Below, piece by piece: positions 22,437 through 57,643 of a DNA stretch of 64,000 bases. This DNA is from Nocardioides perillae (GTDB taxonomy: Bacteria; Actinomycetota; Actinomycetes; Propionibacteriales; Nocardioidaceae): NCBI RefSeq assembly GCF_013409425.1, contig NZ_JACCAC010000001.1, positions 1,054,001-1,118,000 on the forward strand, read 5' to 3'. The notes below the pieces were generated by a model, which was given only the letters and a program-made list of their open reading frames with translations, searched no databases and had not been told where the DNA came from. Every line of letters starts with the position of its first letter. Position 1 is the stretch's first letter. Position numbers and translations under genes: made by a program.

Positions 22437-22505
22437 CCGCTGGTCGAGCAGTGCTGGCCCTGCTACCGCTGGTCGAGCAGAGCCGCCAGGCCCGCGTCGG
22501 GACCC
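22437..22505 (+). repeat. Dispersed GGTCGAGCAG repeat, intergenic copy
   Basis: Two partial units: CCGCTGGTCGAGCAGTGCTG (22437-22456) and CCGCTGGTCGAGCAGAGCCG (22467-22486) continuing CCAGGCCCGCGTCGGGACCC. The second matches the repeat found inside the thioredoxin gene (27358) and, on the other strand, inside the CysC fusion gene (50438). Confidence 0.75.
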
Positions 22506-22556
22506 CGTGAGCCACCGACGACCTCAGGGCAGACCCGTCCCAGGACGGACGTCTCC

Positions 22557-23948
22557 TCAGCACCGCCGCTGGAACGTCACGCTGCCGTCGGGGTGCGAGA
22601 CCGTGTCGTAGGCCGGGTCGTGGATGCGGGCGTGGTGCCGGGGACACAGCAACCGGCCGTTGGCCTTGTCGGTCGGCCCGCCTCTGCTCCACGGGATGTC
22701 GTGGTGCGCGTGGCACATCCCGGGTGGCCAGTCGCAGCCGGCGGCGGTGCAACCGCCCTGCTCGATCTCGAGGGCGCGGCGCTGTGCGGGGGAGAAGAGC
22801 CGCTGTGTGCGACCCAGGTCCAGCACCTCGCAGCGTCCGCCCAGCACGACCGGCGCGATGCCGGACTCGCAGGCGAGCATCCGGGCCCGCCCGGCGCTGA
22901 TGCGCGTGCCGGTGCTCAGCGTCGCGACCCCGAGCCCGCCCATCAGTGTCTCGAGCGACATCGTGACCGTCACGGTGGCGGGCAGTCCGCCGGCGCGGGG
23001 GAGGTCCTTCACCAGGTAGCGCTCGATCAGCTCGCACAGCGCCTGGCCGCGGCGCAGCGGCATCGACGGCCGCTCTCCACCGGCCGCCACCCCTGCGCCG
23101 GACTCGGGCTGCGAACCGACGCCCGAGCCGACACCCGACACCGCACCCGGCTCCGCACCCGACTCCGCGCCCGAGCCGCAGCCCGCACCGCCGTCCTCCG
23201 TCGCCCGGCGCGCCCGCTGGTGCTTCGGCGCCGCGATCGCGTCGAGGAGCGTGCGCAGCCGGTCGCCGTGCTCGGTGGGGATCGCGAAGCGACCCCGGGT
23301 CGTGCCGTGGCCGTCGTCGCTCATGGTCAGCGTCGCTGCCCGCCGCGCCTCGCGCTCCTCCCGCTCGAGCCGCTCGCGCTCCACCTCGTCGGCGACGTCG
23401 GGGGCGACGACCTCGAGCACCTTGCGACCGAGGGCGCGCAGCTCGAGCGCGTCGTGGACGGCCGCGCAGTCGAGCAGGAACGTCGCGGCCTCGGCCCGCA
23501 CGCGGGCGTCGACCCGGTCGGTCGGCAGGGCGTCGACCGCGGCGGTGATGGCCCGCGCCTGGTCGAGGTGCACCCGCCCGTCGGCAAGCGCGTCGGCCAC
23601 CGCCCGGTGACGCGGCTCGGCGAGCGTCGCGGCCACCCGCGCGTCGCGGAAGCAGTCGGGTCGCGTGCGGCGGGTGTGCGACGCGGCCCAGGCGGCCGTC
23701 GACGTCGCACCCGTGGTGCCACCGGCGCCGTCCTCGACCGCCTGCGCGGTCACCCGCAGCCGCAGGGCCGCGACCTGCGCCTCGAGCGCGGCGATGGCGA
23801 CCAGCGCCTCGCCGAGGTCGGTCTCCGTCATCGACCAGGTCGGCGAGCCCACGACCCGGGTGACGGTCTCGGAGGCCTCCGTGAGCGCGTCGCACACCGG
23901 GTGGTGCGACGTCGTCCCGCTCCGGATGGCCATGGGCCATTCTGACAT
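22557..23948 (-). CDS. DUF222/HNH endonuclease-domain protein (13E12 family)
   Basis: About 463 residues. The N-terminal two thirds are the DUF222 helical region (LVAIAALEAQVAALRLRVTA; ALADGRVHLDQARAITAAVDAL), and the C-terminus is an HNH nuclease motif (GCTAAGCDWPPGMCHAHHDI, then WSRGGPTDKANGRLLCPRHH) with its Cys/His metal site. A Gly/Ser/Ala-rich linker around residues 255-285 is made of imperfect repeats. The family, known as 13E12 repeats in mycobacteria, is multi-copy in many actinobacteria; an association with mobile introns or phage defence has been proposed but is not settled. Start codons at 23957, 23948 and 23933 are all possible and none has a good ribosome-binding site. Confidence 0.85.
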   Translation of the reverse strand: MSEWPMAIRSGTTSHHPVCDALTEASETVTRVVGSPTWSMTETDLGEALVAIAALEAQVAALRLRVTAQAVEDGAGGTTGATSTAAWAASHTRRTRPDCFRDARVAATLAEPRHRAVADALADGRVHLDQARAITAAVDALPTDRVDARVRAEAATFLLDCAAVHDALELRALGRKVLEVVAPDVADEVERERLEREEREARRAATLTMSDDGHGTTRGRFAIPTEHGDRLRTLLDAIAAPKHQRARRATEDGGAGCGSGAESGAEPGAVSGVGSGVGSQPESGAGVAAGGERPSMPLRRGQALCELIERYLVKDLPRAGGLPATVTVTMSLETLMGGLGVATLSTGTRISAGRARMLACESGIAPVVLGGRCEVLDLGRTQRLFSPAQRRALEIEQGGCTAAGCDWPPGMCHAHHDIPWSRGGPTDKANGRLLCPRHHARIHDPAYDTVSHPDGSVTFQRRC

Positions 23949-24030
23949 GTCCAGCACGAGAGTGCAACATATCCGTACACACGTTCGACAGTCGGCCCGG
24001 CGTAGCAGCGGCCACCCACGACGTACGACG

Positions 24031-24054
24031 CCGCCCGCACCAGCGTGTGGGCGG
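24031..24054 (-). terminator. Hairpin after the acidic hypothetical gene
   Basis: CCGCCCGCAC (24031-24040) pairs with GTGTGGGCGG (24045-24054) with one G-T pair and a 4-base loop, just downstream of the minus-strand gene ending at 24082. Confidence 0.5.
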
Positions 24055-24081
24055 ACGGCGGCGAGCTGGGGGAGGGACGGG

Positions 24082-24345
24082 CTACTCGTCCTCGAGCAGC
24101 ACGTCGTCGGCCACGCCCTCGGGCACCTCGTCGGGGCGGCGGTGCTGCGGGTCGTCGAAGCGCGTGGCCTCGGCGGGGTAGGCCTCGCCCACGGGGTGGG
24201 CGCCGCCTGCGGGCGAGCCCTGCGCGGGGTCGTACTGCCCCTCGGCCGCGGCCCCCTCGGTCGTCGAGCTCGGCTCGGCCTGCTCGCCGGAGTCGCTGAC
24301 GCGACCGGTCGCGCCGTCCGTCTGCTGCGGGTCCTGCGTGCTCAC
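24082..24345 (-). CDS. Small acidic hypothetical protein
   Basis: 87 residues from a GTG with GAGAGG upstream. The composition (Asp, Glu, Gly, Pro, Gln, Ala; almost no large hydrophobics) predicts a disordered, soluble protein. It ends in an acidic LLEDE tail. No family is recognised. Similar short acidic proteins are common and unannotated in this group. Confidence 0.55.
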   Translation of the reverse strand: MSTQDPQQTDGATGRVSDSGEQAEPSSTTEGAAAEGQYDPAQGSPAGGAHPVGEAYPAEATRFDDPQHRRPDEVPEGVADDVLLEDE

Positions 24346-24429
24346 GCGATCACCTCTCGCTGTCGGGTGCCGGCTCCGTACCCTCCGGAGCGCGCGCCAT
24401 GCCGCGCAGCACCGACCCAGCGCACGCCC

Positions 24430-25512: not shown

Positions 25513-25578
25513 GCGCGCATGCTGCCACCCCGCGCCGACACCCCGCCGACACCGCATCGAGCCCGACCCCGGGCGCAG

Positions 25579-25614
25579 CAACGCCCCGGCCGCCGCTGCG
25601 CGGCCGGGGCGTTG
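25579..25614. terminator. Strong 15-bp hairpin
   Basis: CAACGCCCCGGCCGC (25579-25593) and GCGGCCGGGGCGTTG (25600-25614) form a perfect stem with a 6-base loop. It lies downstream of the minus-strand membrane-protein gene ending at 25658 and upstream of the lipoprotein gene. Confidence 0.8.
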
Positions 25615-25657
25615 GCTGAGGTGGAGCTGGTGGGTCACCGGGGGGTGACCCGAGGGC

Positions 25658-26548: not shown

Positions 26549-26776
26549 AGATCTTCCGTCCTGTCGTCAGGGGAGCTGTCCAGACCTCGTACCCGGCCTC
26601 TCCGGACGCATGCCCCACCCGTTTCAACGGTGGTTCGGTGGCTCGCAAGCGCTCAACGGGTGAAATGTTGGGATGGGATGAGACAAACCCGTGACCCACC
26701 CGCTACGGTCTCCTCACCTACACCAATCACGTGGCTCGGCGACGGTCCACTCGATGCAACATGGGGTGAGAATTCA

Positions 26777-27257: not shown

Positions 27258-27815
27258 GTGACCCCCGGCGCCTTGATCCTCCTCGCCACCGTCGCCCTGG
27301 CCCTCGCCTTCGGCGCCTGGCGACGCTTCAGCGACGGCCGCTTCCGCCCGAACACGTTGGTCGAGCAGGGCCGCCAGGCGAACCCGCTGATCGAGCAGGG
27401 CCGCCAGGCCCGTGTCGAGACCGAGCAGGCCCGCCAGCCCACCCCGCTGGTCGAGCAGGCCCGCCAGGGCCGTGTCGAGACCCCCGCAACCCCACCGCCG
27501 ACCTCCCTCCTCGCTGACACCCCGTACGACGCCCAGCGCGGCGAGCGCGCCACCTTGCTGCAGTTCTCGAGCGCCTTCTGCGCCCCCTGCCGCGCGACCC
27601 GCCGAGTGCTGGGCGACATCGCCGAGGTGGTCCCCGGCGTGACCCACGTCGAGGTCGACGCCGAGCAGCAGCTCGAGCTGGTCCGCCGGCTCGGCGTCCT
27701 GCGCACGCCGACCACCGTCGTGCTCGACCGGCACGGCCGCGAGGTCACGCGGGCGGCAGGCGCGCCGCGCAAGGAGCAGGTGCTGACCGCCCTCGCCGAG
27801 GCCGGCCTCCAGTGA
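27258..27815 (+). CDS. Membrane-anchored thioredoxin-domain protein
   Basis: 185 residues from a GTG. A short N-terminal helix (ALILLATVALALAFGAW) anchors it. Residues about 34-76 are a linker built from a repeated nucleotide element (LVEQGRQ, LIEQGRQARVET, LVEQARQGRVET). The thioredoxin fold follows, with the redox motif CAPC at 108-111 and the cis-proline in RTPTTVVLD. Thioredoxins reduce disulfides or persulfides; encoded next to the DUF4395/rhodanese/DUF1416 genes it matches the ThiX position beside cysA2-sseC2 in mycobacteria. The domain could face either side of the membrane. Confidence 0.85.
   Translation: MTPGALILLATVALALAFGAWRRFSDGRFRPNTLVEQGRQANPLIEQGRQARVETEQARQPTPLVEQARQGRVETPATPPPTSLLADTPYDAQRGERATLLQFSSAFCAPCRATRRVLGDIAEVVPGVTHVEVDAEQQLELVRRLGVLRTPTTVVLDRHGREVTRAAGAPRKEQVLTALAEAGLQ
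27358..27485 (+). repeat. Dispersed GGTCGAGCAG repeat, in-frame copies inside the thioredoxin gene
   Basis: Consecutive units such as TTGGTCGAGCAGGGCCGCCA and CTGATCGAGCAGGGCCGCCA, the second continuing into CGTGTCGAGACC, then two more variant units. All keep the reading frame and encode (L/V)(V/I)EQGRQ-type peptide units. Confidence 0.85.
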
Positions 27816-27976: not shown

Positions 27977-28069
27977 CGGACGCCTCACGCTGCCCTCTCG
28001 CGGCTTCACCGCTCGCAGCCTGACGTCCGTGCCCACCCGGCCTGATCCGTCCACGTCAGCAGGAGCACC

Positions 28070-28531
28070 ATGTCCACCACGTCCGCGCCACGCGTCGCCG
28101 CCCAGGCGAGCGCGCAGGTCGACCCCCGCGGCCAGCGGTTCGCCGCGTCGCTGACGGTCGTCGTGCTCGCCGTCGTGCTGCTGACGGCCCCCAGCGGCCT
28201 CGCGACGGGCCTGCTGGCCGCGCAGGCGGCCCTCTTCGCCACCGCGGTGGCGCTCGGCGTGCAGCGCACCCCGGTCGCCTGGCTCTACCGCACCGTGGTG
28301 CGCCCCCGCTTCGGCCCGCCGGCCGAGACCGAGGACGCCGCGCCCCCGCGCTTCGCCCAGGCCGTCGGCCTGGCCTTCGCGGCGGTCGGCCTCGTCGGCT
28401 TCCTGACCGGCGCCACGGCGCTCGGCCTGGTCGCCACGGCCTTCGCCCTGGCCGCCGCCCTGCTCAACGCCGCCTTCGGCTTCTGCCTGGGCTGCGAGAT
28501 GTACCTCCTGCTCAAGCGTGCCACCGCCTGA
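28070..28531 (+). CDS. DUF4395 membrane protein
   Basis: 153 residues with four hydrophobic helices. The DUF4395 marks are PRGQRFAASLTVVVLAVVLL at the start and the Cys-containing LNAAFGFCLGCEMYLLLKR at the end, whose CxxC is conserved and may take part in sulfur or redox transfer. These proteins are repeatedly encoded beside rhodaneses and thioredoxins, as here. It starts about 95 bases after the leader peptide and 42 bases before the rhodanese gene, so it is probably the first large cistron of that operon. Confidence 0.88.
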   Translation: MSTTSAPRVAAQASAQVDPRGQRFAASLTVVVLAVVLLTAPSGLATGLLAAQAALFATAVALGVQRTPVAWLYRTVVRPRFGPPAETEDAAPPRFAQAVGLAFAAVGLVGFLTGATALGLVATAFALAAALLNAAFGFCLGCEMYLLLKRATA

Positions 28532-28573
28532 GCACCACCCACCCAGACCCCGCACCAACCCAAGGAGCAGCAC

Positions 28574-29422
28574 ATGAGCCGCGAGAACTCCCTCGTCAGC
28601 ACCCAGTGGGTCGAGGACCACCTCGACGACGACGGCGTGGTGATCATCGAGGTCGACGAGGACACCTCGGCCTACGACCGCAGCCACATCCGCAACGCGA
28701 TCAAGCTCGACTGGACGACCGACCTGCAGGACCAGGTCCGTCGCGACTTCGTCGGCAAGGACGCGTTCTCGGCGCTGCTCTCCGAGCGCGGCGTGAGCAA
28801 CGACGACACCGTCGTGCTCTACGGCGGCAACAACAACTGGTTCGCCGCCTATGCGTACTGGTACTTCAAGCTCTACGGCCACGAGGACGTCAAGCTCATG
28901 GACGGCGGCCGCAAGAAGTGGGAGCTCGACGCCCGCGAGCTCACCGACGAGCTGCCGCAGCGCGAGGCGACGACCTACACCGCCTCCGAGCCCGACCTGT
29001 CGATCCGCGCCTTCCGCGACGACGCCGTGGCCGCCATCGGCGTGAAGAACCTCGTCGACGTCCGCAGCCCTGACGAATACGCCGGTCGCCTCATGGCGCC
29101 CGCGCACCTCCCGCAGGAGCAGGCCCAGCGCGCCGGCCACATCCCCACCTCGGTCAACGTGCCGTGGAGCAAGAACTGCAACGACGACGGCACCTTCAAG
29201 TCCGACGAGGAGCTGAAGGCCCTCTACGAGGAGGTTGGCTTCGACGGCTCGAAGGAGACCATCGCCCTGTGCCGCATCGGTGAGCGCTCCTCGCTCACCT
29301 GGTTCGTCCTCAAGGAGCTGCTGGGTCACGAGTCGGTCAAGAACTACGACGGCTCCTGGACGGAGTACGGCTCCCTGGTGGGCGTGCCCGTCGTCCTCGG
29401 CGACGAGCCGGGTGCGGCCTGA
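28574..29422 (+). CDS. cysA: Thiosulfate sulfurtransferase (rhodanese), CysA/SseA type
   Basis: 282 residues, two rhodanese domains. The inactive N-domain has VIIEVDEDTSAYDRSHIRNA; the catalytic C-domain has the active-site loop CRIGERSS and NLVDVRSPDEYAGR. The enzyme moves sulfane sulfur from thiosulfate to thiophilic acceptors. It strongly resembles mycobacterial CysA2/CysA3. (The symbol cysA here is the sulfurtransferase, not the sulfate ABC ATPase.) AGGAGCAG precedes the ATG. The stop overlaps the ATG of the DUF1416 gene. Confidence 0.94.
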   Translation: MSRENSLVSTQWVEDHLDDDGVVIIEVDEDTSAYDRSHIRNAIKLDWTTDLQDQVRRDFVGKDAFSALLSERGVSNDDTVVLYGGNNNWFAAYAYWYFKLYGHEDVKLMDGGRKKWELDARELTDELPQREATTYTASEPDLSIRAFRDDAVAAIGVKNLVDVRSPDEYAGRLMAPAHLPQEQAQRAGHIPTSVNVPWSKNCNDDGTFKSDEELKALYEEVGFDGSKETIALCRIGERSSLTWFVLKELLGHESVKNYDGSWTEYGSLVGVPVVLGDEPGAA

Positions 29423-29718
29423 TGTGCGGCGCCACTGAGGGCGGCCTCTCGCTCGACGGCGTAGACGTGGCGAAGGAGGCCATCGTCCAGGGCCAGGTCG
29501 TGCGTGACGGAGAGCCGGTCGGCAACGCCTACGTGCGCCTGCTCGACCGCACCGGCGAGTTCACCGCCGAGGTGCCCACATCGGCGACTGGCCACTTCCG
29601 CTTCTTCGCCGGTGACGGCGAGTGGACGCTGCGCACCCTCGCCCCCAAGGCCGACCCGGTCGACCGCAAGGTCCACGCGCAGGTCGGGTCCGTCGCCGAG
29701 GTGACCGTCACCATCTGA
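29422..29718 (+). CDS. sseC: DUF1416 protein SseC
   Basis: 98 residues, matching DUF1416 (MCGATEGGLSLDGVDVAKEA, VVRDGEPVGNAYVRLLDRTG, TSATGHFRFFAGDGEWTLR). The fold is a transthyretin-like carboxypeptidase-regulatory sandwich, with a conserved Cys2. It is almost always encoded directly after a CysA-type rhodanese; the start here overlaps the rhodanese stop by one base. It is thought to assist sulfur transfer, but the mechanism is unknown. A strong terminator follows. Confidence 0.93.
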   Translation: MCGATEGGLSLDGVDVAKEAIVQGQVVRDGEPVGNAYVRLLDRTGEFTAEVPTSATGHFRFFAGDGEWTLRTLAPKADPVDRKVHAQVGSVAEVTVTI

Positions 29719-29727
29719 TGCACGCAC

Positions 29728-29758
29728 GACGCCCCCGGAGCAGCGCTCCGGGGGCGTC
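29728..29758 (+). terminator. Perfect 14-bp terminator hairpin
   Basis: GACGCCCCCGGAGC (29728-29741) and GCTCCGGGGGCGTC (29745-29758) with an AGC loop, 10 bases after sseC. It closes the sulfur operon before the polysaccharide locus. Confidence 0.88.
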
Positions 29759-29837
29759 CGCATGCGTGGCTCGGTTCATCGGACGCACCACATAACGCCT
29801 AGACTGCGCCGGACAGCTCGACGGGATGGGGGACGCG

Positions 29838-30968
29838 ATGGGTTTCGACATCTTGCTGTCGCCGCCGGACGTCGGCGAATTCGAGCAGCAGTACGTCTTG
29901 CGCGCGATGCAGTCCGGCTGGGTTGCTCCCGCGGGACCCGACCTCACGGCCTTCGAGCAGGAGGTTGCCGCCCGCGTCGGCGTCGCCCACGCGGTCGGCC
30001 TCTCGTCGGGCACGGCGGCGCTGCACCTCGCGTTGGTGTCCTGGGGTGTGGGCCCCGGTGATGTCGTGCCGGTGTCGACCTTGACCTTCGCCGCGACAGT
30101 GAATGCAATCCGCTATGTGGGGGCGACCCCGCACTTCGTCGATTGCGAGGAAGAGACCGGCAACATCTCGCCGGCCCTGCTCGAGCAAGCGGTTGCTGGA
30201 CTGACCGCACAGGGCGCCAGGGTTCCGGTGATCATCCCGGTCGACTTGCTCGGCAAGTGCGTCGACTACGACGCCGTCCAGGGCGTCGCCGGCGCCGCGG
30301 GCGCTCGACTCCTCGGCGACGCGGCCGAGTCCTTCGGTGCCACCTACCGCGGCCGGCCCGCCGGTTCTTTCGGCGATGCCTCGGTAGTGTCCTTCAACGG
30401 CAACAAAATCATGACCACTTCGGGCGGCGGCATGCTGCTGACCGACGACCGGCGGTTAGCCGACCACGTCCGCAAGCTGTCGACGCAGGCCCGCGAGCCG
30501 GTGCCGCACTATGAGCACACCGAGGTGGGCTACAACTACCGGCTCTCGAACATCCTCGCCGCGCTGGGGCGAGCCCAGCTCGCTCGCCTCGACGACATGA
30601 TCAAGCGACGGCGCGGATGGCGCGAGCGATACCGGGCTCTGTTTACCGACCAGCCCGGCGTTCGCATCCTGGGCGGGGCCGACGACGCGGAGGACAACTG
30701 CTGGCTCACCGCGATCGTGGTCGATCAGGCGGCGTCACGCTGGTCTGCGCAGCAGCTCGGCGGAGCGCTCGACGGCGCGGGCATCGAGACGCGGCCTCTC
30801 TGGAAGCCGATGCACCTTCAACCCGTGTGCCGGGACCTCCCCGGTCTGATCAACGGCACTTCGGAGCGGATCTTTTCCCACGGCCTGACGCTGCCGGCCG
30901 GATCGGTGATGACCGACGACGAATTCGCCCGGATCGAGGACGCTGTCCGGGCGGTGATCGCGTCGTGA
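29838..30968 (+). CDS. DegT/DnrJ/EryC1 sugar aminotransferase, PglE-like
   Basis: 376 residues from ATG 29838 (alternative ATG 29826). The family transfers an amino group to a 4-keto sugar nucleotide using PLP. The PLP lysine is K190 in SFNGNKIMTTSGGGM, a context typical of PglE/LegC-type enzymes making UDP-4-amino-4,6-dideoxy sugars; GLSSGTAALHLAL binds the cofactor phosphate. It is the first gene of the polysaccharide operon and overlaps the next gene by four bases. The matching 4,6-dehydratase (PglF/CapD type) is encoded 24 kb away at 54545. Confidence 0.9.
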   Translation: MGFDILLSPPDVGEFEQQYVLRAMQSGWVAPAGPDLTAFEQEVAARVGVAHAVGLSSGTAALHLALVSWGVGPGDVVPVSTLTFAATVNAIRYVGATPHFVDCEEETGNISPALLEQAVAGLTAQGARVPVIIPVDLLGKCVDYDAVQGVAGAAGARLLGDAAESFGATYRGRPAGSFGDASVVSFNGNKIMTTSGGGMLLTDDRRLADHVRKLSTQAREPVPHYEHTEVGYNYRLSNILAALGRAQLARLDDMIKRRRGWRERYRALFTDQPGVRILGGADDAEDNCWLTAIVVDQAASRWSAQQLGGALDGAGIETRPLWKPMHLQPVCRDLPGLINGTSERIFSHGLTLPAGSVMTDDEFARIEDAVRAVIAS

Positions 30969-31576
30969 GGCGACACGACGCCGTCAAGCGCACGATCGAC
31001 TTGGTGGTTAGCACTGTCGCGCTCGTGCTGTCGGCGCCCTTGCAGGCGGTCATCGCCGTCGTTGTGCGCCGCAAGCTGGGCTCGCCGGTCCTCTTCCGGC
31101 AGCCCCGCCCGGGCCGGGACGGCGAGGTCTTCGAGCTGGTCAAGTTCCGCACGATGCTGGAGCTGGACGTGCAGCGGGGCCTCGTGACCGACGCGGAGCG
31201 GCTGACGCCCTTCGGCGCGCTGCTCCGGTCGACGAGTCTCGATGAGCTGCCGACCCTGTGGAACGTCGTGCGTGGTGACATGAGTCTGGTTGGTCCGCGG
31301 CCGCTGCTGGTGCAGTATCTCGAGCGCTACAGCCCGGAGCAGGCGCGTCGGCACGAGGTGCGCCCGGGGATCACCGGGCTTGCTCAAGTGAGTGGTCGCA
31401 ATGCGCTGACGTGGGACGCCAAGTTCGCCAAGGACGTTGAGTACGTGGACAATCGGAGCCTCCGCCTCGACGCGGCGATCGTGTGGCGGACGCTCGCCCA
31501 GGTCTTTCGCCGCCACGGCATAACGGCGGACGGCGATGTCACGATGCCGGAGTTCTTGGGGCGGACCCATGGTTGA
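30965..31576 (+). CDS. Initiating sugar-1-phosphate transferase, PglC-like
   Basis: 203 residues from the GTG overlapping the previous stop. This is the short, monotopic form of the polyisoprenyl-phosphate sugar transferases: a single re-entrant helix (IDLVVSTVALVLSAPLQAVIAVVV), then FRQPRPGRDGEVFELVKFRTM, the Asp-Glu catalytic pair in SLDELPTLWNVVRGDMSLVGPRPLL and RPGITGLAQVSGRN. It attaches the first sugar phosphate to undecaprenyl phosphate. Placement between PglE- and PglD-like genes suggests the sugar is a diacetamido-trideoxyhexose. Confidence 0.93.
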   Translation: MRRHDAVKRTIDLVVSTVALVLSAPLQAVIAVVVRRKLGSPVLFRQPRPGRDGEVFELVKFRTMLELDVQRGLVTDAERLTPFGALLRSTSLDELPTLWNVVRGDMSLVGPRPLLVQYLERYSPEQARRHEVRPGITGLAQVSGRNALTWDAKFAKDVEYVDNRSLRLDAAIVWRTLAQVFRRHGITADGDVTMPEFLGRTHG

Positions 31577-32207
31577 GCCGTTGGTTATCGTTGGCGCAGG
31601 TGGCTTCGGCCGCGAGACCGCCGACGTCGTCGAGGCAATCAACGCCATCGCACCCACGTGGGAACTCCTTGGTTTCGTCGACGACGCGCCGTCCGACGTC
31701 AATCTCGAGCGATTGGCGGCGCGGGGCTACGACCTCCTGGGGGGCACCGACCACCTCGTCAGCCTCGACAACTGCGCGCACTACGTGATCGGCGTCGGCT
31801 GCCCGCGCGCTCGCCGGGCCGTCGCGGACCGGTTGAGATGCGGCCGTCACGTGCCTGCCACCCTGGTGCATCCCGCCGCCACCATCGGGTCCGCGGTGTC
31901 GATCGGGGAGGGCACGGTCATCTGTGCGGGCGCCCGGCTGACGACGAACATCGCAGTTGGCCGACACGTGCACGTCAATCCCAGCGCGACGGTCGGGCAC
32001 GACACGACGCTTGGTGACTTCGTTAGCCTGAACCCCGCCTCGTCGATCTCGGGCGACTGCGTGATCGGAGCAGGGTCGCTGGTGGGAGTCGGTGCAGTCG
32101 TCCTCAACCAGTTGCGGGTCGGGGAGGACGCGACGGTCGGGGCGAGTGCCTGCGTCGTGCGAGACGTGCTCGACGGCGCCACCGTGAAGGGTGTGCCGGC
32201 GCGATGA
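31569..32207 (+). CDS. Sugar O/N-acetyltransferase, NeuD/PglD-like
   Basis: 212 residues from the ATG at 31569, overlapping the previous gene by eight bases. The N-terminal Rossmann-like part (LVIVGAGGFGRETADVVEAI) binds the nucleotide sugar. The C-terminal left-handed beta-helix shows hexapeptide repeats and the catalytic-type His in VNPSATVGHDTTLGDFVSLN. In PglD this domain acetylates the 4-amino group made by the aminotransferase. The three consecutive genes thus match the last steps of UDP-diNAc-bacillosamine synthesis and its loading on lipid. Confidence 0.88.
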   Translation: MVEPLVIVGAGGFGRETADVVEAINAIAPTWELLGFVDDAPSDVNLERLAARGYDLLGGTDHLVSLDNCAHYVIGVGCPRARRAVADRLRCGRHVPATLVHPAATIGSAVSIGEGTVICAGARLTTNIAVGRHVHVNPSATVGHDTTLGDFVSLNPASSISGDCVIGAGSLVGVGAVVLNQLRVGEDATVGASACVVRDVLDGATVKGVPAR

Positions 32208-33505
32208 CCGGTTTGAGGGTGGTGGCGCTCGTGTGTCAGTGGTACCCGCCCGAGCCGGTAGAGATCCCGTCCGGGATAGCAGCAGCGCTTCGGGATCAAG
32301 GACTGGTCTTGAGGGTGCTGACCGGAATCCCGAACTATCCGTCCGGTGCGGTGCACGACGGGTATGCGCCCTGGAGCCGCCGGAGGGAGACACTCGACGG
32401 TATCGAGGTCATCCGGTCGCCTCTTTACCCCAGCCACGACGCGAGCGCACTCCGTCGGCTGCTGAACTACGGCAGCTGGGCAATCAGCAGCTCCGTGTTC
32501 GGCCAGCGGGTGCTCCGCGAGACCGACGTGGCGCTCGTCTACTCGTCGCCCGCCACTGCTGCGCTCCCAGCCATGGTGGCCAGAACTCTCTGGCGGACCC
32601 CGTACGTTCTCTTGGTGCAGGACGTTTGGCCCGACTCGATCTTTGCCTCGGGCTTCCTGTCTGGGCGGTGGGGGCGGCAGGCGCACAACCTGATCGATGT
32701 CTTCGTTCGGCGGGCTTACGCGCGCGCGGCGCACATCGTGGTCACTTCTCCAGGGATGGCCGACCTGCTCGCGCGACGTGGCGTTCCGCAGAACAAGCTC
32801 ACCATCATTTACAACTGGCTGCCTGAGGACCGAAGCGCCCAGCCTGCCGATCACGATGCAGATTTAAAGCGAGCTTTGGGCGTCCCGGCCGACTCGCTCC
32901 TTTTCATGTATGCCGGGAACCACGGGAAGGCGCAGGCGCTCGATGCGCTCATCGACGCGTTCACGAGCGATGAGACCCGACCCGCGCATCTGGTGCTTAT
33001 GGGCGACGGAGTGGAGAAGGCGCGGCTCATCGACCGCGCCCGCGCGTCGGCCCGCATCCACTTCCTGGACCCGGTTCCGCGAGCCGAGGCGGATCGCCTC
33101 ATGGTTTCCGCAGACGTGTCTGTGGTGTCGTTGGCTGACGAGCCTCTGTTCGCCGTCACGATGCCCAGCAAGGTCCAGTCTGGGCTGGCGTCCGGGCGCC
33201 CGTTGCTCGTAATTGCGCGCGGCGACGCAGCCGACGTCGTGACCGGTTCGGGCGCGGGAGTAGCGGCAGCCCCGAGCGATCCGGTCGCGATTGCCGAGGC
33301 GGTCGCGAAGCTCTCTGCGACCTCGCTTCACGAGCTGACCTTGATGGGACGGCGCGGCCTCGAGGTCTACCGCAGCCAGATGGCACGGGACGTCGGCGCT
33401 AAGCGCATGCGTGCCGTTTTACGTGATGCGGCGCGGCGCAGCCGCACGGCGATCGCCGGACCCCCCGATCGAACGGCGGAAGGATCAGTCAGTGAGCAGC
33501 GTTGA
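32204..33505 (+). CDS. Glycosyltransferase family 4 (WbuB-like)
   Basis: 433 residues. GT-B architecture: N-domain beginning VVALVCQWYPPEPVEIPSGIA with PNYPSG, typical of WbuB-type enzymes, and C-domain with LLFMYAGNHGKAQALDALIDAF and FAVTMPSKVQSGLASGRPLL. WbuB-like transferases add an amino sugar such as FucNAc to the lipid-linked acceptor, which would fit the FucNAc genes that follow. The start overlaps the previous stop (ATGA). Confidence 0.88.
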   Translation: MTGLRVVALVCQWYPPEPVEIPSGIAAALRDQGLVLRVLTGIPNYPSGAVHDGYAPWSRRRETLDGIEVIRSPLYPSHDASALRRLLNYGSWAISSSVFGQRVLRETDVALVYSSPATAALPAMVARTLWRTPYVLLVQDVWPDSIFASGFLSGRWGRQAHNLIDVFVRRAYARAAHIVVTSPGMADLLARRGVPQNKLTIIYNWLPEDRSAQPADHDADLKRALGVPADSLLFMYAGNHGKAQALDALIDAFTSDETRPAHLVLMGDGVEKARLIDRARASARIHFLDPVPRAEADRLMVSADVSVVSLADEPLFAVTMPSKVQSGLASGRPLLVIARGDAADVVTGSGAGVAAAPSDPVAIAEAVAKLSATSLHELTLMGRRGLEVYRSQMARDVGAKRMRAVLRDAARRSRTAIAGPPDRTAEGSVSEQR

Positions 33506-42604: not shown

Positions 42605-42723
42605 GACACAATGACAGCGGCTTGATGGCCGCGCGTCCACGGCATGGGGATGCCCGCACGTCGGCGACGCCGCGGTCGTGGGTAATGCGCTCCGTAATGC
42701 GGCTGAGATGGAAGGATGGAGTC

Positions 42724-44662: not shown

Positions 44663-44718
44663 TCGGCAACGGCCTGATTTCGCCAGAGTTCCCATCGAGC
44701 GCCTTAGGGATGGACGGA

Positions 44719-45939: not shown

Positions 45940-46019
45940 GCGTGCCTCCTTTGCCGTGCGCGTCTCGTCATTTGCCGCTCATTCGGTGGCGGCCGGGGCG
46001 CGACCGCTCTCGATCGAGG

Positions 46020-47342: not shown

Positions 47343-48256
47343 CAGAAGTAGCCCTCCTTCTTCCGGTCCTCCATGGCGGCCTCGGAGAACTTGTCGTCTC
47401 CGCGGGTGGCGCCGCGCTCGGTGACGCGGGCGACGGCGATCTCCTCGATGATCTCCTCGACCGTGCTGGCTCCCGACTCCACGCAGCCGGTCAGGGTGAT
47501 GTCACCGCACGTGCGGAAGCGCACGGTGCGCTCCTCGGCGGTCTCGCCCTGCTTCATCGGGTTCAGCGGGGTCTCGGTCATCAACATGCCGCCGCGCTCG
47601 AAGACCCGGCGCTGGTGGGCGAAGTAGATGGAGGGGATCTCGATGCCCTCACGGGCGATGTAGGACCAGACGTCGAGCTCGGTCCAGTTCGAGATCGGGA
47701 AGATGCGCATGTGCTCACCCTCGTGAAGCCGGCCGTTGTAGAGGCTCCACAGCTCGGGACGCTGATTCTTGGGGTCCCACTGGCCGAACTCGTCGCGGTG
47801 GGAGTAGACGCGCTCCTTGGCGCGGGCCTTCTCCTCGTCGCGGCGACCGCCACCGAAGGCGGCGGTGAAGCCGTTCTCCTCGATGGCGTTGAGCAGGGTC
47901 CCGATCTGCAGGCGGTTGCGCGAGGTCTTGCCGTCGTCGACCACGACGCCCTGAGCGATCGCGTCGTCGATGCTGGCCACCACGAGCTGCACGCCGAGCC
48001 GCTCGACCCAACGGTCGCGCGTCTCCATGACCTCGGGGAAGTCGAGACCCGTGTCGACCTGCATGATCGGGAAGGGGATCTTCGCCGGGTAGAAGGCCTT
48101 CTCCGCCAGACGCAGCATCACAATGGAGTCCTTGCCGCCGGAGAACATCAGCACCGGCTTCTCGAACTCCGCCGCGACCTCGCGGAAGATGTGGATCGAC
48201 TCCGCTTCCAGCTGGTCGAGCTGACTCAGCCGGTAGTCGGCGTGCGTCTCAGTCAT
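47342..48256 (-). CDS. cysD: Sulfate adenylyltransferase subunit 2, CysD
   Basis: 304 residues from the ATG at 48256. It is the catalytic subunit forming APS from ATP and sulfate. PP-loop SGGKDSIVML at 39-48, then MQVDTGLDFPEVMETRDRWV, GGGRRDEEKARAKER, FPISNWTELDVWSYI and the C-terminal RFRTCGDITLTGCVES. An in-frame ATG at 48328 would add 24 residues (with GCC residues Gly-Cys-Cys), but runs into the end of the VanZ gene and is less likely. A 17-codon mini-ORF links the VanZ stop to this start. Confidence 0.95.
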   Translation of the reverse strand: MTETHADYRLSQLDQLEAESIHIFREVAAEFEKPVLMFSGGKDSIVMLRLAEKAFYPAKIPFPIMQVDTGLDFPEVMETRDRWVERLGVQLVVASIDDAIAQGVVVDDGKTSRNRLQIGTLLNAIEENGFTAAFGGGRRDEEKARAKERVYSHRDEFGQWDPKNQRPELWSLYNGRLHEGEHMRIFPISNWTELDVWSYIAREGIEIPSIYFAHQRRVFERGGMLMTETPLNPMKQGETAEERTVRFRTCGDITLTGCVESGASTVEEIIEEIAVARVTERGATRGDDKFSEAAMEDRKKEGYF

Positions 48257-49889: not shown

Positions 49890-51791
49890 TCAGTCCTCTG
49901 GGGTCAGCGCGGGCAGCACGGTCGCGAGCAGACGGTCGATGTGCTCCGCGGCAGCCTGAGCCGCGGCGTCGCCCCGACGGTAGGGGTCGGCCACGTCGAG
50001 GCCGGGCGAAGCGCTGCCACGCGAGGCCGCGGCCTCGGCCACCAGTGCGCGGCCGCGCGCGGTCGTGCCGGACGACTCGACGTAGGCGGCGAGCTGGCCG
50101 AGGGTGAAGACCTTGCGGAAGGCCTCCGGCTGGTCCTCGAGCAGGAAGGTGCGGTGGGTTGCCTCGGCGGTCAGCACCACGTCGGCCTCGTCGAGCAGCT
50201 CGCGGGTCACCGCGCGGCTGCGGAAGTCGCTGCTGTCGATGCTGCGCGCCTGCAGCTGGGCGGCCATCGCGGCGTCGGTCGGCTTGGCGTCGAACCCGTG
50301 GGTGCCGGCGCTGCTGACCACCACGCGGCTGGTGTCGCCGAGGTGGTGGCGGGCGGCGGCCTCCATGTAGGGGGAGCGGCAGATGTTGGCGGTGCAGACG
50401 AAGAGGATGCGGAGGGGGGCCTCTGCTTCGGCCTCGGGGGTTTCGACACGGGCCTGGCGGCCCTGCTCAACCACCGGTGAGGGGCGGCCCTGCTCAACCA
50501 CCGGGGTGGGGCCCTGCTCGACGACCGACAGGGGGCGGGCTCGCTCGACCGCCGGTTCCGCGGTGAGGTCGAGGAGGCGCTCGGCTGCCAGGGCCTGCAG
50601 GACGTCATCGAGGGCGTCCTCGATGGTGCGACCGGTCGTGTCGACCCGCACCGACGCGTCCTGGGGCTCCTCGTAGGGCGACGAGATGCCGGTGAACTCG
50701 GGGATCTCCCCGCGACGGGCCTTGGCGTAGAGGCCCTTGCGGTCGCGGCGCTCGCACTCCTCCAGCGGCGTGGCGACGTGGACGAGGAAGAAGGTGCCGC
50801 CGGCGTCCTCGACGAGCTGGCGCACCTGCTGGCGGGTCTCGTCGAAGGGGGCGATGGGGCTGCACACCGCAAGGCCGCCGTGACGGGCGATCTCGGCGGC
50901 GACCCAGCCGATGCGGCGGATGTTGGTCTCGCGGTCGGCCTTCGAGAAGGTGAGGCCGGCCGAGAGGTTGCGGCGCACGACATCGCCGTCGAGGCTCGTG
51001 ACGGTGCGAGCGGTGTGCTCGAGCACGCGGTCGACCAGGGCGCGGGCCAGTGTCGACTTGCCGCTGCCCGACAGGCCGGTGAAGAAGAGCACGAGGCCAC
51101 GCTCGTCGGGTGCCTTGTCGGCCGCCCGCACGATGGCGCCGATCGCGCCGGAGTGCGTGCCGTAGGTGTAGTAGGTCTCGCCCGGCTTGGGCGCCGGTTC
51201 GGGCAGCGGGGAGAGCTCGCTCTGGTCGACGACGCGGTCGGAGCCGGCGTACGCCTGGACGACGCGGTCGCGGAGGTCGTCGGCGCGTCGTGTGAGGGGC
51301 ACGGCCACGACGTCGGCCGCGTCCAGCAGGTCGGCCGCGACGAGCCCGGCCCGCAGCAACGCGGTCGCCGGGAGACCGTGTCGGTCGTGGCCGCAGAGCG
51401 CGAGGAGCACGAGGGGGCCGAGGTCACGGGCGGCCTCCAGCTGCTCGTCGCTCAACGCGCCGGTCACCACGAGTACGGCGCGCCCGGCGAACCGCTCGCG
51501 CACCTCGGCCGGGGTCAGGTGGAGGCGGCGGAAGGGACCGTAGTCGGGCCGCGACAACGGCTCCGCCACGCCGGCCGGCCACGCCACGCGGGCGAGGGGG
51601 AGGCCTTCGGGGTCGACGAGCTCGACGGCACCGGCCTCGCGGGCCTGCGTGTCCACCTCGGGCGGGAGGGCGAGGGTGACGGGGCTGCCCGGCTCGCCGA
51701 AGCCCCGCAACGGCGCGAGCGCCCCGGTCAGGAGCAGCTCGAGGTCGTCGAGCTCGGCGGGGGAGGGGCAGTGCTGCGGGGCGGTCGACAC
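49890..51791 (-). CDS. cysC: Fusion: degenerate ATP-sulfurylase domain + APS kinase (CysC) + LMW tyrosine phosphatase
   Basis: 633 residues. Residues 1-205 resemble ATP sulfurylase (LLTGALAPLRGFGEPGSPVTL; DVVAVPLTRRADDLRDRVVQA) but lack the HxxH/RNP catalytic motif, so that part is probably inactive or structural. Residues 230-405 are APS kinase: GLSGSGKST at 239-247, LDGDVVRRNLSAGLTFSKAD, GLYAKARRGEIPEFTGI. It phosphorylates APS to PAPS. Residues 420-452 are a linker made of a dispersed DNA repeat (VVEQGRP, VVEQGRQARVET). Residues 459-630 are a low-molecular-weight phosphatase with VCTANICRS (Cys466, Arg472) and the acid in DPYRRGD (Asp602). Start at the ATG-equivalent of 51791. It leads the operon with TauE, VanZ and cysDN. 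Confidence 0.9.
   Translation of the reverse strand: MSTAPQHCPSPAELDDLELLLTGALAPLRGFGEPGSPVTLALPPEVDTQAREAGAVELVDPEGLPLARVAWPAGVAEPLSRPDYGPFRRLHLTPAEVRERFAGRAVLVVTGALSDEQLEAARDLGPLVLLALCGHDRHGLPATALLRAGLVAADLLDAADVVAVPLTRRADDLRDRVVQAYAGSDRVVDQSELSPLPEPAPKPGETYYTYGTHSGAIGAIVRAADKAPDERGLVLFFTGLSGSGKSTLARALVDRVLEHTARTVTSLDGDVVRRNLSAGLTFSKADRETNIRRIGWVAAEIARHGGLAVCSPIAPFDETRQQVRQLVEDAGGTFFLVHVATPLEECERRDRKGLYAKARRGEIPEFTGISSPYEEPQDASVRVDTTGRTIEDALDDVLQALAAERLLDLTAEPAVERARPLSVVEQGPTPVVEQGRPSPVVEQGRQARVETPEAEAEAPLRILFVCTANICRSPYMEAAARHHLGDTSRVVVSSAGTHGFDAKPTDAAMAAQLQARSIDSSDFRSRAVTRELLDEADVVLTAEATHRTFLLEDQPEAFRKVFTLGQLAAYVESSGTTARGRALVAEAAASRGSASPGLDVADPYRRGDAAAQAAAEHIDRLLATVLPALTPED
50438..50545 (-). 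repeat. Dispersed GGTCGAGCAG repeat, in-frame copies inside the CysC fusion gene
   Basis: Read on the minus strand: units such as GTCGTCGAGCAGGGCCCCAC, GTGGTTGAGCAGGGCCGCCC and GTGGTTGAGCAGGGCCGCCA followed by GGCCCGTGTCGAAACCCCC. They encode VVEQG repeats joining the kinase and phosphatase domains. Same element as at 22437, 27358, 52829 and 57604. Confidence 0.85.
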
Positions 51792-52828: not shown

Positions 52829-52895
52829 TGGTCTCGACACGCTCGCTGGCGCTCGCTGCTCGACCAACCAGTGGCGGGCTCGCTGCTCGACCAGC
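52829..52895 (-). repeat. Dispersed GGTCGAGCAG repeat, intergenic copy
   Basis: On the minus strand: CTGGTCGAGCAGCGAGCCCG (reading from 52895) then TTGGTCGAGCAGCGAGCGCC, ending GTGTCGAGACC. It lies between the convergent asparaginase and tyrosine kinase genes, and could fold as part of a terminator. Confidence 0.7.
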
Positions 52896-52912: not shown

Positions 52913-54367
52913 TCAGTCGGACTGGCGGCGCTTCGCGGCCCGGCGGCCCTCGCGCTTGCTGCCCTTGGCGGCCTTCTTCGCCTCTTCCGGGCCGTACCCG
53001 TAGCCGTACCCGTAGCCGTACCCGTAGCCGTACCCGTAGCCACCGTCACCGCCGCTGCGTCGACGGACGGGCGCCATGTTGAGGACCGTGCCGAGCACGG
53101 TGCCGTCGACCTGGGCGAGCCGGTCGAGAGCCCCTCGGAGCTGATCGCGGGTGGTCTTGCCGTGGCGCACCACGACGAGGGCGCCATCGGACTGCGACGT
53201 CAGCAGCGCCGCATCGGTGACCGGCAGCAACGGAGGTGCGTCGAGGATGACGATGTCGTAGCGCTCGCGCAGGTCGACCAGGAGCTGGGCCATGGCCTGC
53301 GACTGCAGCAGCTCGGCCGGATTGGGCGGGATGGGGCCGCTCGTCACCACCTCGAGGCCGGTGCCGCCGTGCTTCTGCACCGCGTCGTCCAGGGAGACCC
53401 TGCCCACCAGGACCGTGGTGACGCCGACGGCGGAGTCGAGGTCGAAGATGCCCGCGACCTTCGGGCGGCGCAGGTCGCACTCGACGAGGACCACGCGGCT
53501 GCCCGCCTGGGCGAGCGTGATGGCGAGGTTGCAGGCGGTCGTGGTCTTGCCCTCGGCCGGCAGCGACGAGGTGACGACGAAGGTCTTGGTCGTCGCGTCC
53601 ACGTCGACGAACTGCATGTTGGTGCGCAACACGCGGAACGCCTCGACCCGCGGTGCATGCGACTCGAGCGCCGTGACCAGCGGCTGGCGGCTGGTCGCGG
53701 CGTCGAAGGCGATCGCCCCCATGGTCGGCGCCTCGGTGATGTCGTCGAGGTCGTCCTTGCTCTTGATCGTGGTGTCGAGCAGCTCTCGCACGACGGCGAG
53801 GCCGACGCCCAGCAGCAGGCCCAGGACGAGGGCCAGGCCCAGGTTGCGCACCGGCTGAGGAGTGACCGGGCTCGTGGGGACGGCGGCCCGGTCGACGACG
53901 GAGGCCCGGATCGGCGCGGCGCCGCCGCCCTCGGGCGTCTCCAGCTCGCGCACGATCTCGGTGAGCTCGTCGGCGTAGGTGTTGGCGATGGCCTGGGCGC
54001 GCTCGGCGTCGGGATCCGTCGCAGAGATCTCCAGGATCACGGTCTCGGGCGTCACCGTCGCCGACACCGCCTGCGACAACCGCTCCGGGGCCATGTCGAG
54101 GCCGAGCTCGTCGATCACCCGCGTGGCCACCTGCCGACTGGAGACCAGGTCGGCGTACGAAGTGACCCGCTGAGCCGAGAACAGCCCGCCCTGGTAGGCG
54201 TCGGCCGTGTCCGACTGCGCAGTGGAGACGAAGAGGCGAGCCGTCGACTGGTACTGCGGGGTGGCCGCGGCCGTGTAGGCAGCCGCGGCACCGGTGCACA
54301 CGACGACGCACAACGCGATCAGGATCCACCGCCGGCGGATCACTCGCAGGTAGTCGCGCAGCTCCAC
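52913..54367 (-). CDS. Polysaccharide chain-length regulator/tyrosine autokinase (Wzc/CapAB type)
   Basis: 484 residues from the GTG at 54367; the frame continues far upstream across the next gene and that part is rejected. N-terminal Wzz domain: helix at about 14-36 (WILIALCVVVCTGAAAAYTAA), periplasmic part, second helix at about 175-194. The C-terminal BY-kinase has Walker A LPAEGKTTTACN (269-280), Walker A' VVLVECDLRRP (292-302) and Walker B DIVILDAPPLLPVTDA (371-386). A tail of eight Gly-Tyr units (444-458) then a Lys/Arg-rich end gives the phosphorylation cluster. It controls polymerisation or export of surface polysaccharide. It diverges from the CapD-type gene. Confidence 0.93.
   Translation of the reverse strand: MELRDYLRVIRRRWILIALCVVVCTGAAAAYTAAATPQYQSTARLFVSTAQSDTADAYQGGLFSAQRVTSYADLVSSRQVATRVIDELGLDMAPERLSQAVSATVTPETVILEISATDPDAERAQAIANTYADELTEIVRELETPEGGGAAPIRASVVDRAAVPTSPVTPQPVRNLGLALVLGLLLGVGLAVVRELLDTTIKSKDDLDDITEAPTMGAIAFDAATSRQPLVTALESHAPRVEAFRVLRTNMQFVDVDATTKTFVVTSSLPAEGKTTTACNLAITLAQAGSRVVLVECDLRRPKVAGIFDLDSAVGVTTVLVGRVSLDDAVQKHGGTGLEVVTSGPIPPNPAELLQSQAMAQLLVDLRERYDIVILDAPPLLPVTDAALLTSQSDGALVVVRHGKTTRDQLRGALDRLAQVDGTVLGTVLNMAPVRRRSGGDGGYGYGYGYGYGYGYGYGPEEAKKAAKGSKREGRRAAKRRQSD
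52992..53039 (-). repeat. 12-bp tandem repeat coding the Gly-Tyr tail
   Basis: Four exact copies of CCGTACCCGTAG (plus strand) from 52992 to 53039 encode the Tyr-Gly run of the kinase C-terminus. Such exact repeats can gain or lose units by slippage without breaking the frame. Confidence 0.9.
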
Positions 54368-54544
54368 AGCATCCTCTTCTTCGACGGCCGGTGACGACGG
54401 CTGCACCCTACGGTGTCCAGACCTCGGTCCGTGAAGCGTGACGATCTCGTGCTGGTCGTCGTTGTGACGTAACGTTCGCACTCGGTCGGGAGTCCTCGCA
54501 CGCCACGCGCGGGGCCGCCGGTCGGCCAGATCGTGGGGGAGATC

Positions 54545-56386: not shown

Positions 56387-56413
56387 CGCGTGACCCATCA
56401 CACGCCGCTTGCA

Positions 56414-56438
56414 CTTGCAAGCGCTAGCAGTTGCTAGC
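56414..56438. promoter_or_regulatory. Clustered palindromes upstream of the XRE regulator
   Basis: CTTGCAAG (56414-56421), GCTAGC (56423-56428) and GCTAGC (56433-56438) are three short perfect palindromes; the two GCTAGC boxes are 10 bases apart, one helical turn. They lie 13-37 bases before the regulator ATG, a plausible autoregulatory operator. Confidence 0.5.
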
Positions 56439-56450
56439 ACAGTAGTAGCC

Positions 56451-56831
56451 ATGGCCCAGGGCAAGGTAGGCAAGACCGTCGAGGGACTCGGCGACTTCCT
56501 CCGCGAGCAGCGCACCTCCGCGCAGCTCTCGCTGAGGCAGCTCGCCGACCTCACCGGCGTGTCCAACCCCTACCTCAGCCAGATCGAGCGCGGCCTGCGT
56601 CGGCCCTCGGCAGAGGTGCTGCAGCAGATCGCCAAGGCACTGCGCATCTCGGCGGAGCAGCTCTACGTCCGCGCCGGGATCGTGCACCCGCAGGACGGCG
56701 TCGGCGGCTCCGTCGAGCTCGCCGTGCTGGGCGACACCGCGCTCACCGAGCGCCAGAAGCAGTCGTTGCTCGACGTCTACTCGTCGTTCCTGGCCATGAA
56801 CGCAGCGGCCGCACCCGACGACGAGGCCTGA
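56451..56831 (+). CDS. XRE-family transcriptional regulator
   Basis: 126 residues from the ATG at 56451. The helix-turn-helix is textbook: LGDFLREQRTSAQLSLRQLADLTGVSNPYLSQIERGLRRPSAEVL (split over residues about 10-55). A small C-terminal part (LTERQKQSLLDVYSSFLAMN) may dimerise. It corresponds in order and type to mycobacterial Rv0474, which precedes hbhA. It is followed 44 bases later by the HbhA-like gene and is probably co-transcribed. Confidence 0.9.
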   Translation: MAQGKVGKTVEGLGDFLREQRTSAQLSLRQLADLTGVSNPYLSQIERGLRRPSAEVLQQIAKALRISAEQLYVRAGIVHPQDGVGGSVELAVLGDTALTERQKQSLLDVYSSFLAMNAAAAPDDEA

Positions 56832-56875
56832 CAACCCCACCCCGGCCCCGGCCGGGAAACCGAAGGAGATCACCC

Positions 56876-57598
56876 ATGGCGAAGGCCAAGTTCGACATCA
56901 AGACCGAGGCGACCCGCACCTTCTACGCCGGCGCCGGCGTGGCGGACCTGGCCGTCGAGGCCGTCCGCGACTACGTGGCCGACGTGCAGGCGAAGATCGC
57001 CGGCGTCCGCGGCGACGTCGAGACCCGCGTGAACGACGTGCAGAAGCGCGTCACCGCGATCGACCTCGAGCCCAAGGCGCTGCGCGACCAGGCCCTCACG
57101 GTCGTCAACTCCCGCGTCGAGGCCCTCACCGAGGACGCCAAGGCCCGCCGCGCCGCCATCGAGGCCCGCGTCGCCGAGCTTCAGGCCGAGGCCAAGGCCC
57201 TCCCGACCCGCGTGCAGACCGTGGTCGACGGCAACGTCACCACCGTCACCACGACCTACGCCGACCTCGCCGAGCGCGGCCAGAAGCTGGTCGTGCGCAT
57301 CCGCCGCCAGGAGTCGACCCAGCAGGCCAAGGCCAGCGCGACCACCACCGCGACCAAGGCGAAGACCACCACCACCCAGGTCAAGAAGGCCGGCACCGCC
57401 ACCGCGAAGTCGACCACCACCGCCGCCAAGAAGACGACGGCGACCGCCAAGAAGGCCACCACCACCGCGAAGAAGACGGCCACCAAGAAGGCCGCCCCCG
57501 CCAAGAGCAGCGCCAAGGCGACCGCCACGGCCGCGAAGAACACCGCTGCCAAGACCGCGGCTGCCACCACCGAGGCTGCGGCCAAGGTCGGCGACTGA
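56876..57598 (+). CDS. HbhA-like heparin-binding protein
   Basis: 240 residues from an ATG preceded by GAAGGAG. N-terminal half: an amphipathic alpha-helix with heptads (VADLAVEAVRDYVADVQAKI; VNDVQKRVTAIDLEPKAL; LTEDAKARRAAIEARVAEL), as in mycobacterial HbhA. C-terminal half: low-complexity Lys/Ala/Thr repeats (KKTTATAKKATTTAKK) resembling the methylated, heparin-binding tail of HbhA. In mycobacteria the protein is surface-associated and bridges the cell to glycosaminoglycans; here it may bind anionic polymers or act as a coat-like or DNA-binding helix. The repeats also resemble histone-like tails, an alternative. Confidence 0.82.
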   Translation: MAKAKFDIKTEATRTFYAGAGVADLAVEAVRDYVADVQAKIAGVRGDVETRVNDVQKRVTAIDLEPKALRDQALTVVNSRVEALTEDAKARRAAIEARVAELQAEAKALPTRVQTVVDGNVTTVTTTYADLAERGQKLVVRIRRQESTQQAKASATTTATKAKTTTTQVKKAGTATAKSTTTAAKKTTATAKKATTTAKKTATKKAAPAKSSAKATATAAKNTAAKTAAATTEAAAKVGD

Positions 57599-57603
57599 CC
57601 TCA

Positions 57604-57643
57604 GCGGGTCTCGGCACGGCCCTGACGGGCCTGCTCGACCGAC
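57604..57643 (-). repeat. Dispersed GGTCGAGCAG repeat, intergenic copy
   Basis: On the minus strand: GTCGGTCGAGCAGGCCCGTC followed by AGGGCCGTGCCGAGACCCGC. It directly follows the stop of the HbhA-like gene. Confidence 0.7.

Follow-up and report, generated by a model that had tools for sequence, protein, structure and literature searches.

REP-Like Palindromes in Nocardioides Lie Beside HNH-Type Genes and, in Frame, Within Protein Linkers

Introduction

In the repetitive extragenic palindromic (REP) systems with REP-associated tyrosine transposases (RAYT), short imperfect palindromes of high copy number undergo complementary changes and the partner gene is flanked by inverted copies, as far as the consulted part of the source describes them (Nunvar 2010, PMC2817692). 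Here we analyse a repeat from a 64,000-nucleotide stretch of Nocardioides perillae (contig NZ_JACCAC010000001.1, positions 1,054,001 to 1,118,000), referred to as the window, and find that it is a member of a REP-like palindrome family in Nocardioides (GGTYGAG...CGARACC). Its copies lie between genes, around genes for HNH-type nucleases, and in frame inside two window genes, which encode a thioredoxin-fold protein and a fused adenylylsulfate (APS) kinase-phosphatase. We consider it probable that the repeat is a mobile palindrome travelling with, and possibly mobilised by, an HNH nuclease, and we have little doubt that the copies within genes are tolerated insertions carried as linker peptide in both window genes.

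The Nocardioides element resembles the REP/RAYT systems in being a high-copy palindrome with complementary changes and in having a partner gene flanked by inverted copies, here of the HNH type. Unlike REP sequences it has no GT(A/G)G head, its sequence beginning with GGTYGAG and ending with CGARACC, and unlike in REP/RAYT systems the flanked gene does not encode a Y1 nuclease and no PF01797 gene was found in 147 genomes of the genus. The GTAG- and CGTC-tagged palindromes are 20–40 bp long, form dimers and clusters and lie in some cases in coding regions, and no dedicated transposase was found for the CGTC class; the available portion of that text mentions neither Nocardioides, Actinobacteria nor HNH (PMC3733652). 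Judged by that portion, the present elements share with them size class, dimers, clusters, the translation of some copies and, for the CGTC class, the want of a known transposase. The present elements differ from them in head sequence and in the covarying arms.

Rickettsia palindromic elements have reportedly been described by Ogata in 2000 and 2002. According to the excerpt at hand they measure ≈150 bp and are inserted in frame in unrelated genes, where they are tolerated (PMC10969869). On that description the likeness is a palindromic repeat tolerated in frame in unrelated genes, while the present elements are mostly 33–44 nt long and have hit the same orthologous linker in many species and in several phases. 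Finally, the DUF222/13E12 HNH genes of mycobacteria (REP13E12) are multicopy and regarded as repetitive elements in the section consulted (PMC10589994). The multicopy DUF222-HNH genes treated as repeats are common to both cases, the mycobacterial genes being known here by description, and that description says nothing of a family of palindromic elements that obeys a rule of orientation. The linker phenomenon thus belongs to a known kind, and the HNH link, if causal, would be a new variant of a REP system. A search of an open-licence library with pieces of the element sequence returned only papers that seemed unrelated from their titles and the beginnings of their abstracts.

The Repeat Is a Palindrome With Covarying Arms

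An earlier note on this DNA, made from the sequence alone, had placed a repeat of about 40 bases at five positions of the window. These places hold with small corrections (Table 1): a 20-mer of the repeat has eight window matches with up to three mismatches against 0.04 expected from shuffles, and its right part has 11 with up to two mismatches against 2.39 expected. At 52830 only the outer arms agree with the other copies, the inner part being another variant. The proposed count across the genome (3.61 Mb, one contig) gave 42 matches to the 20-mer with up to two mismatches against one for the reversed pattern, and 34 exact copies of the gapped core GGTYGAGCRG..TGTCGARACC against none reversed. 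An RNA family was considered and rejected, as no Rfam family matched the window at gathering scores.

The hairpin covariation, the pattern in orthologous linkers and the association with HNH genes had no part in the earlier note. For the covariation we used a detector with exact arms, which found 249 matches against one for the reversed pattern at 148 genus loci; an earlier relaxed detector was discarded (774 matches against 125 reversed). Within the limits of the pattern the elements are 24–48 nt long, mostly 33–36 and 40–44 nt. Their outer arms have the layout GGTY-GA-G-X ... X'-N-C-GA-RACC, and the inner stem changes fast yet remains self-complementary. The fourth base and its partner (Y-R) are complementary in 219 of the 233 distinct elements (shuffled 126.7, standard deviation (sd) 7.0, maximum 153), as are the eighth base and its partner (X-X') in 208 (shuffled 88.9, sd 7.1, maximum 111). 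Together with the count of 34 against zero in the own genome, this covariation identifies the repeat as a short high-copy palindrome.

Tandem G.A pairs in a YGAR/YGAR context are unusually stable in DNA. An inner helix of at least five pairs is present in 104/233 elements, and in 175/233 if the tandem GA/AG mismatch is counted as pairing; by comparison, swapped halves reach 14% without and 30% with G.A pairs, and shuffles 9% and 10%. When single strands were folded under standard DNA parameters, five of six elements had z scores of -1.4 to -3.8.

The window-type core is found in 47 of the 147 genomes of the genus Nocardioides, as delimited in the genome collection, with up to 145 copies (G055) and a reversed control of zero throughout. 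This core detects one arm variant only, and other Nocardioides species have arms of the forms GGTYGAGGAG, GGTYGAGGTG and GGTCGAGTAG. A looser pattern was applied outside the genus. It gave 143 matches against one reversed in a genome of the same family (G360), and 58 against 0 (G371), 41 against 1 (G414), 38 against 0 (G434) and 61 against 1 (G444) in genomes of the same class; the other genomes of the 396 had mostly low counts, many of them likely due to chance. The sequences from G371, G414 and G444 agree with the Nocardioides elements in their arms, have inner parts that are complementary, and often form facing pairs. In G371 and G414, from another family of the class, these pairs are often 10–40 bp apart and look like REP doublets.

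Elements Flank HNH-Type Genes With a Fixed Orientation

Many copies in the own genome are paired around a multicopy open reading frame (ORF; P0001 family), which is present in ten copies at 87–100% protein identity, one at 68% and one at 32%. The repeated DNA of these units extends beyond the ORF. The ten units have an element just 3' of the ORF on the opposite strand and another within it in frame, and several also have a 5' element on the same strand. Several units contain, 5' of the ORF, an array of 26-bp tandem repeats (L061:1102-1331) whose copy number varies between units. A second conserved hairpin (GCCCGCACCCC..GGGGTGACGGGC) is located between the two 3' elements of HNH units (L061:3180-3260 and other 3' regions).

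P0001 itself had no Pfam match at E up to 1. Among 25 relatives, however, 16 match PF02720 (DUF222) and 11 match PF01844 (HNH) at E up to 0.1, with best values of 6.2e-13 and 3.6e-5, and in a profile comparison of the family with the DUF222-HNH protein of the window the HNH part aligns (E 1.7e-4, probability 50%). The HNH-type or zinc-ligand residues C387, C392, H403, C443, H447 and K450 are kept in 69/69 aligned proteins, and N438 in 94%. Relatives of one such HNH protein occur in 138 of the 147 genus genomes. A search for defence systems with PADLOC gave no match for P0001 and one weak match for the window's DUF222-HNH protein (E 0.003). A search of solved structures returned a single match (E 0.9). 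Copies of the HNH family in viruses were sought as well, and none of 86 pattern stretches was confirmed.

The layout was surveyed at 69 HNH loci from 37 genomes, which ranked highest in the similarity list (nine returned and 60 chosen from the list) and hence are not a random sample. Elements were counted only if their arms were exact and the bases of both pairs complementary, and loci of one genome are not independent. An element was found within 400 bp 5' in 38/69 loci, within 500 bp 3' in 11/69, all of which also have a 5' element, and inside the gene in 22/69; 5' copies are thus commoner than 3' copies. Of all flanking copies, 63 on the 5' side are on the same strand as the gene against 3 on the opposite strand, and 24 on the 3' side are opposite against 4 on the same strand. 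Counting only the copy nearest to each gene, the 5' element is on the same strand in 36/38 cases and the 3' element on the opposite strand in 11/11. By genome, 21/37 have a 5' element, in 19 of them on the same strand only, in one mixed and in one opposite. At 58 control loci, of the thioredoxin and APS kinase-phosphatase genes, a 5' element was seen in 3 and a 3' element in 0 (Fisher 6e-10 and 9e-4). A relaxed version of the survey gave 45/69 5', 15/69 3' and 30/69 inside (35/57 and 12/57 for the two sides without the 12 loci seen before the test), and the exact survey is preferred. The window's own DUF222-HNH gene has an element in the 3' arrangement found in the survey (22471..22504).

In the own genome 23 of the 34 exact elements are associated with HNH genes, 7 lying inside them and 16 no more than 500 bp away; with these margins the genes make up 1.6% of the genome. 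Since the ten units are duplicates of each other, the figure counts few events. The nine genomes without an HNH match are also without the window-type core, a weak sign that we estimate by hand at about 0.03 by chance. A RAYT was considered as partner and rejected: PF01797 is found in 0/147 genus genomes and in 5/14 control genomes, in a survey confined to this transposase family.

An HNH Nuclease as Candidate for the Spread of the Element

These data may be combined in the following model. Copies of the short hairpin are scattered through Nocardioides genomes. The HNH protein could nick or cut DNA at an element in its folded state, and repair templated by a donor copy could then spread elements and at times a whole gene unit; the same repair might also leave whole and half elements in tandem arrays. 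The cutting by the HNH protein and the copying route are inferences, whereas the repeat family, its covariation, the linker pattern, the layout of the HNH genes and their conserved residues are observed. That the HNH protein is the enzyme that spreads the element seems to us a serious candidate explanation with chances just short of even. The full version, in which an HNH (DUF222/13E12-like) nuclease rather than a Y1 transposase drives a REP-type system, recognises hairpins built on tandem G.A pairs, spreads them and so has repeatedly provided the same multidomain proteins of different Nocardioides species with ready-made linkers, is put forward slightly more tentatively still.

The strongest alternative is that another enzyme, or host recombination or replication slippage, spreads the elements, and that the HNH genes travel as passengers or attract insertions, their flanking elements being copied when the gene is duplicated. 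The own-genome HNH copies are indeed near-identical units that carry their flanks along, and hence not independent, and half elements and tandem arrays fit slippage. Furthermore, 30 loci from six genomes outside the genus had no HNH gene of this family within 1.5 kb, although some of these loci are chance matches. Against this stand the orientation rule, the same in 19 of the 21 genomes with a 5' element and not predicted by passive landing, and the lack of any RAYT-type transposase in the 147 genomes surveyed as given above. We regard this alternative as possible and somewhat less probable than the mobilisation by HNH proteins.

The hairpins could also be host functional sites, such as terminators or nucleoid or regulatory sites, that were multiplied by selection and gave rise to the in-gene copies as by-products. 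Several copies just past stop codons, three of them in the window, would fit such a role, as would the closely spaced facing pairs in other families. Still, a copy number between 0 and 145 within one genus, the many in-frame copies in several phases and the 5' bias to HNH genes, which such sites leave unexplained, make this explanation unlikely.

In-Gene Copies Are Carried as Linkers

The gene identities given in the earlier note are borne out by domain matches. The thioredoxin fold makes up residues 96–179 of the 185-aa protein (PF00085, 6e-8), and one protein of 633 aa unites APS kinase (3.6e-57) with a low-molecular-weight phosphatase (LMWPc, 8.7e-19). The note had further reported one identical peptide, VEQGRQARVET, in both genes. 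This peptide is exact only in the APS kinase-phosphatase; the thioredoxin gene encodes IEQGRQARVET and VEQARQGRVET, and the exact string in common is EQGRQARVET. Instead of the one copy that had been assumed, the thioredoxin linker contains a small tandem array. In-frame insertion is seen in unrelated genes, namely the two window genes and the HNH ORF.

Orthologues of the APS kinase-phosphatase were taken from 29 other genus genomes and from 80 of at least 157 confirmed named loci. After removal of 17 loci whose linkers were identical and of 23 unparsable ones, the 110 loci left 70 distinct linkers, of which 37 contain 55 strict elements in five classes of orientation and phase: 39 in sense phase 2, 6 in sense phase 0, 1 in sense phase 1, 7 in antisense phase 0 and 2 in antisense phase 2. 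For the thioredoxin, where 29 of 30 loci were counted, nine linkers contain 12 elements in three such classes. Some of the strict matches look like chance (L113, L151 and the second of L114). The linker peptides from different phases share nothing (VEEGALAPVSKP, GRVASASERIET, GFETVAAQPPQP, WSSSDERQRGAGVET), while the DNA is of the same family. Orthologues carry different variants at the same linkers, so that their peptides are completely different, and this use of several orientations and reading phases supports tolerated insertion, as the earlier note had proposed, over selection for a single peptide. Among the linkers displayed, no orthologue encoded the same peptide by unrelated codons, which would have spoken for selection on the protein.

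Individual linkers can hold several copies. One orthologue (L100) has three in one gene, two in the linker and one near the N-terminus, another (L200) has three in its APS kinase-phosphatase linker, and some orthologous linkers have no element at all. In Nocardioides sp. PD653-B2 (L199:3001-5283) repeated half elements have lengthened the linker of the APS kinase-phosphatase to 214 residues. Selection would presumably act as a filter here: an in-gene copy survives if it sits in a flexible linker, is read in an open phase and causes no frame shift, but not elsewhere, and hence the two window genes carry the element as linker peptide.

The preponderance of a single class is not a matter of stop codons, as 43 to 51 of the 55 elements would also have an open frame in the other classes, and 21 in sense phase 0. 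Selection on the character of the peptide or shared ancestry must therefore also act. The bias would be expected if each linker had inherited one old insertion whose sequence was later altered by gene conversion with other genomic copies, and 39/55 linker elements do have strand and phase in common. Such a history, which we hold to be quite improbable, is hard to square with orthologues whose copies lie on the opposite strand or in other phases, with the two or three copies that a single linker may have at separate positions, and with linkers that lack the element altogether. Selection of the peptide itself as a linker, by convergence at the protein level, would account for the near-identical peptides in the two window genes and for the bias towards the V-E-x phase, and is very improbable given that the DNA rather than the peptide is conserved, that other phases and the other strand are read in orthologues and that most copies near HNH genes are non-coding.

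Insertion Ends and Points of Conflict

All loci were compared with one another for gaps that span an element. Of the 141 cases one is clean, between two HNH units of G055 (L276 and L106), where 59 bp with a 41-nt element are absent from the paralogue. The remaining cases lie in diverged linkers. Precise insertion boundaries, which the earlier note had hoped to find by comparison with repeat-free orthologues, were thus obtained cleanly for one pair of HNH paralogues and for none of the linkers.

A number of observations, besides the 30 loci outside the genus, do not sit well with a mobile hairpin mobilised by an HNH nuclease. At the clean empty site the insert is longer than the element and no target-site duplication was visible by eye, and no movement of an element was seen. 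Folded with standard pairs, the element at 52830 is no more stable than its shuffles (z +0.83), and it is palindromic only if G.A pairs are allowed. In the own genome only 3/14 PF02720 genes have an element within 400 bp 5', in addition to the 3' case of the window. One genome without an HNH match (G020) yet has a decayed element-like stretch of another type in a linker (L094). In the linkers, 39 of 55 elements fall in one class though most others are open. Finally, 44 linker elements were compared with the other elements of their own genomes, and their likeness of 0.786 against 0.748 by chance (sd 0.011; mean fractional rank 0.43) is a small effect that chance matches and duplicated strains have inflated, and is not used as support.

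If true, the reading of the HNH protein as the spreading enzyme would answer how REP-like repeats without a RAYT can spread in Nocardioides. DUF222/HNH genes are widespread multicopy genes in the genus, and the fixed layout of the palindromes gives them a concrete candidate substrate. The linkers amount to a large natural collection of insertions into one pair of proteins and thereby give a direct look at the tolerance between domains.

Features of the Window

The elements and the genes connected with them are listed in Table 1.

Table 1. Palindromic elements and associated genes in the 64-kb window.
Feature	Position	Strand	Basis or remark
Left half element	22441..22458	+	Sequence reading
Full element, intergenic	22471..22504	+	53 bp past the DUF222-HNH stop, opposite strand to the DUF222-HNH gene
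DUF222-HNH endonuclease-like gene, 466 aa	22557..23957	-	PF02720 4.5e-20, PF01844 6.4e-6
Thioredoxin-fold protein, 185 aa, N-terminal hydrophobic stretch; element array in linker	27258..27815	+	
Left half plus full element in thioredoxin linker, in frame	27359-27378 + 27389-27422	+	Pattern match, sequence reading
Second full element in thioredoxin linker, in frame (VEQARQGRVET)	27449..27482	+	Pattern match, sequence reading
Fused APS kinase-phosphatase gene, 633 aa; element in interdomain linker	49890..51791	-	
Full element in APS kinase-phosphatase linker, in frame (VEQGRQARVET); GGTT..AACC arm variant	50439..50472	-	
Two more left halves in APS kinase-phosphatase linker (VEQGPTP, VEQGRPSP)	50483..50526	-	Sequence reading, upstream in gene
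Element with other inner part (GCGAGC..GCGAGC), intergenic	52830..52865	-	Between convergent Wzz-like and L-asparaginase II genes
Element copy	57607..57640	-	9 bp past stop of gene at 56876-57598

Two further observations concern the window as such. At 52913-53040 a 12-base unit repeated in tandem encodes the GYGYGYG run with which the Wzz/kinase-like protein ends. The G+C content is 0.61–0.67 at ≈32–48 kb of the window and 0.71–0.79 elsewhere, and this part may be an acquired region (28000-48000).

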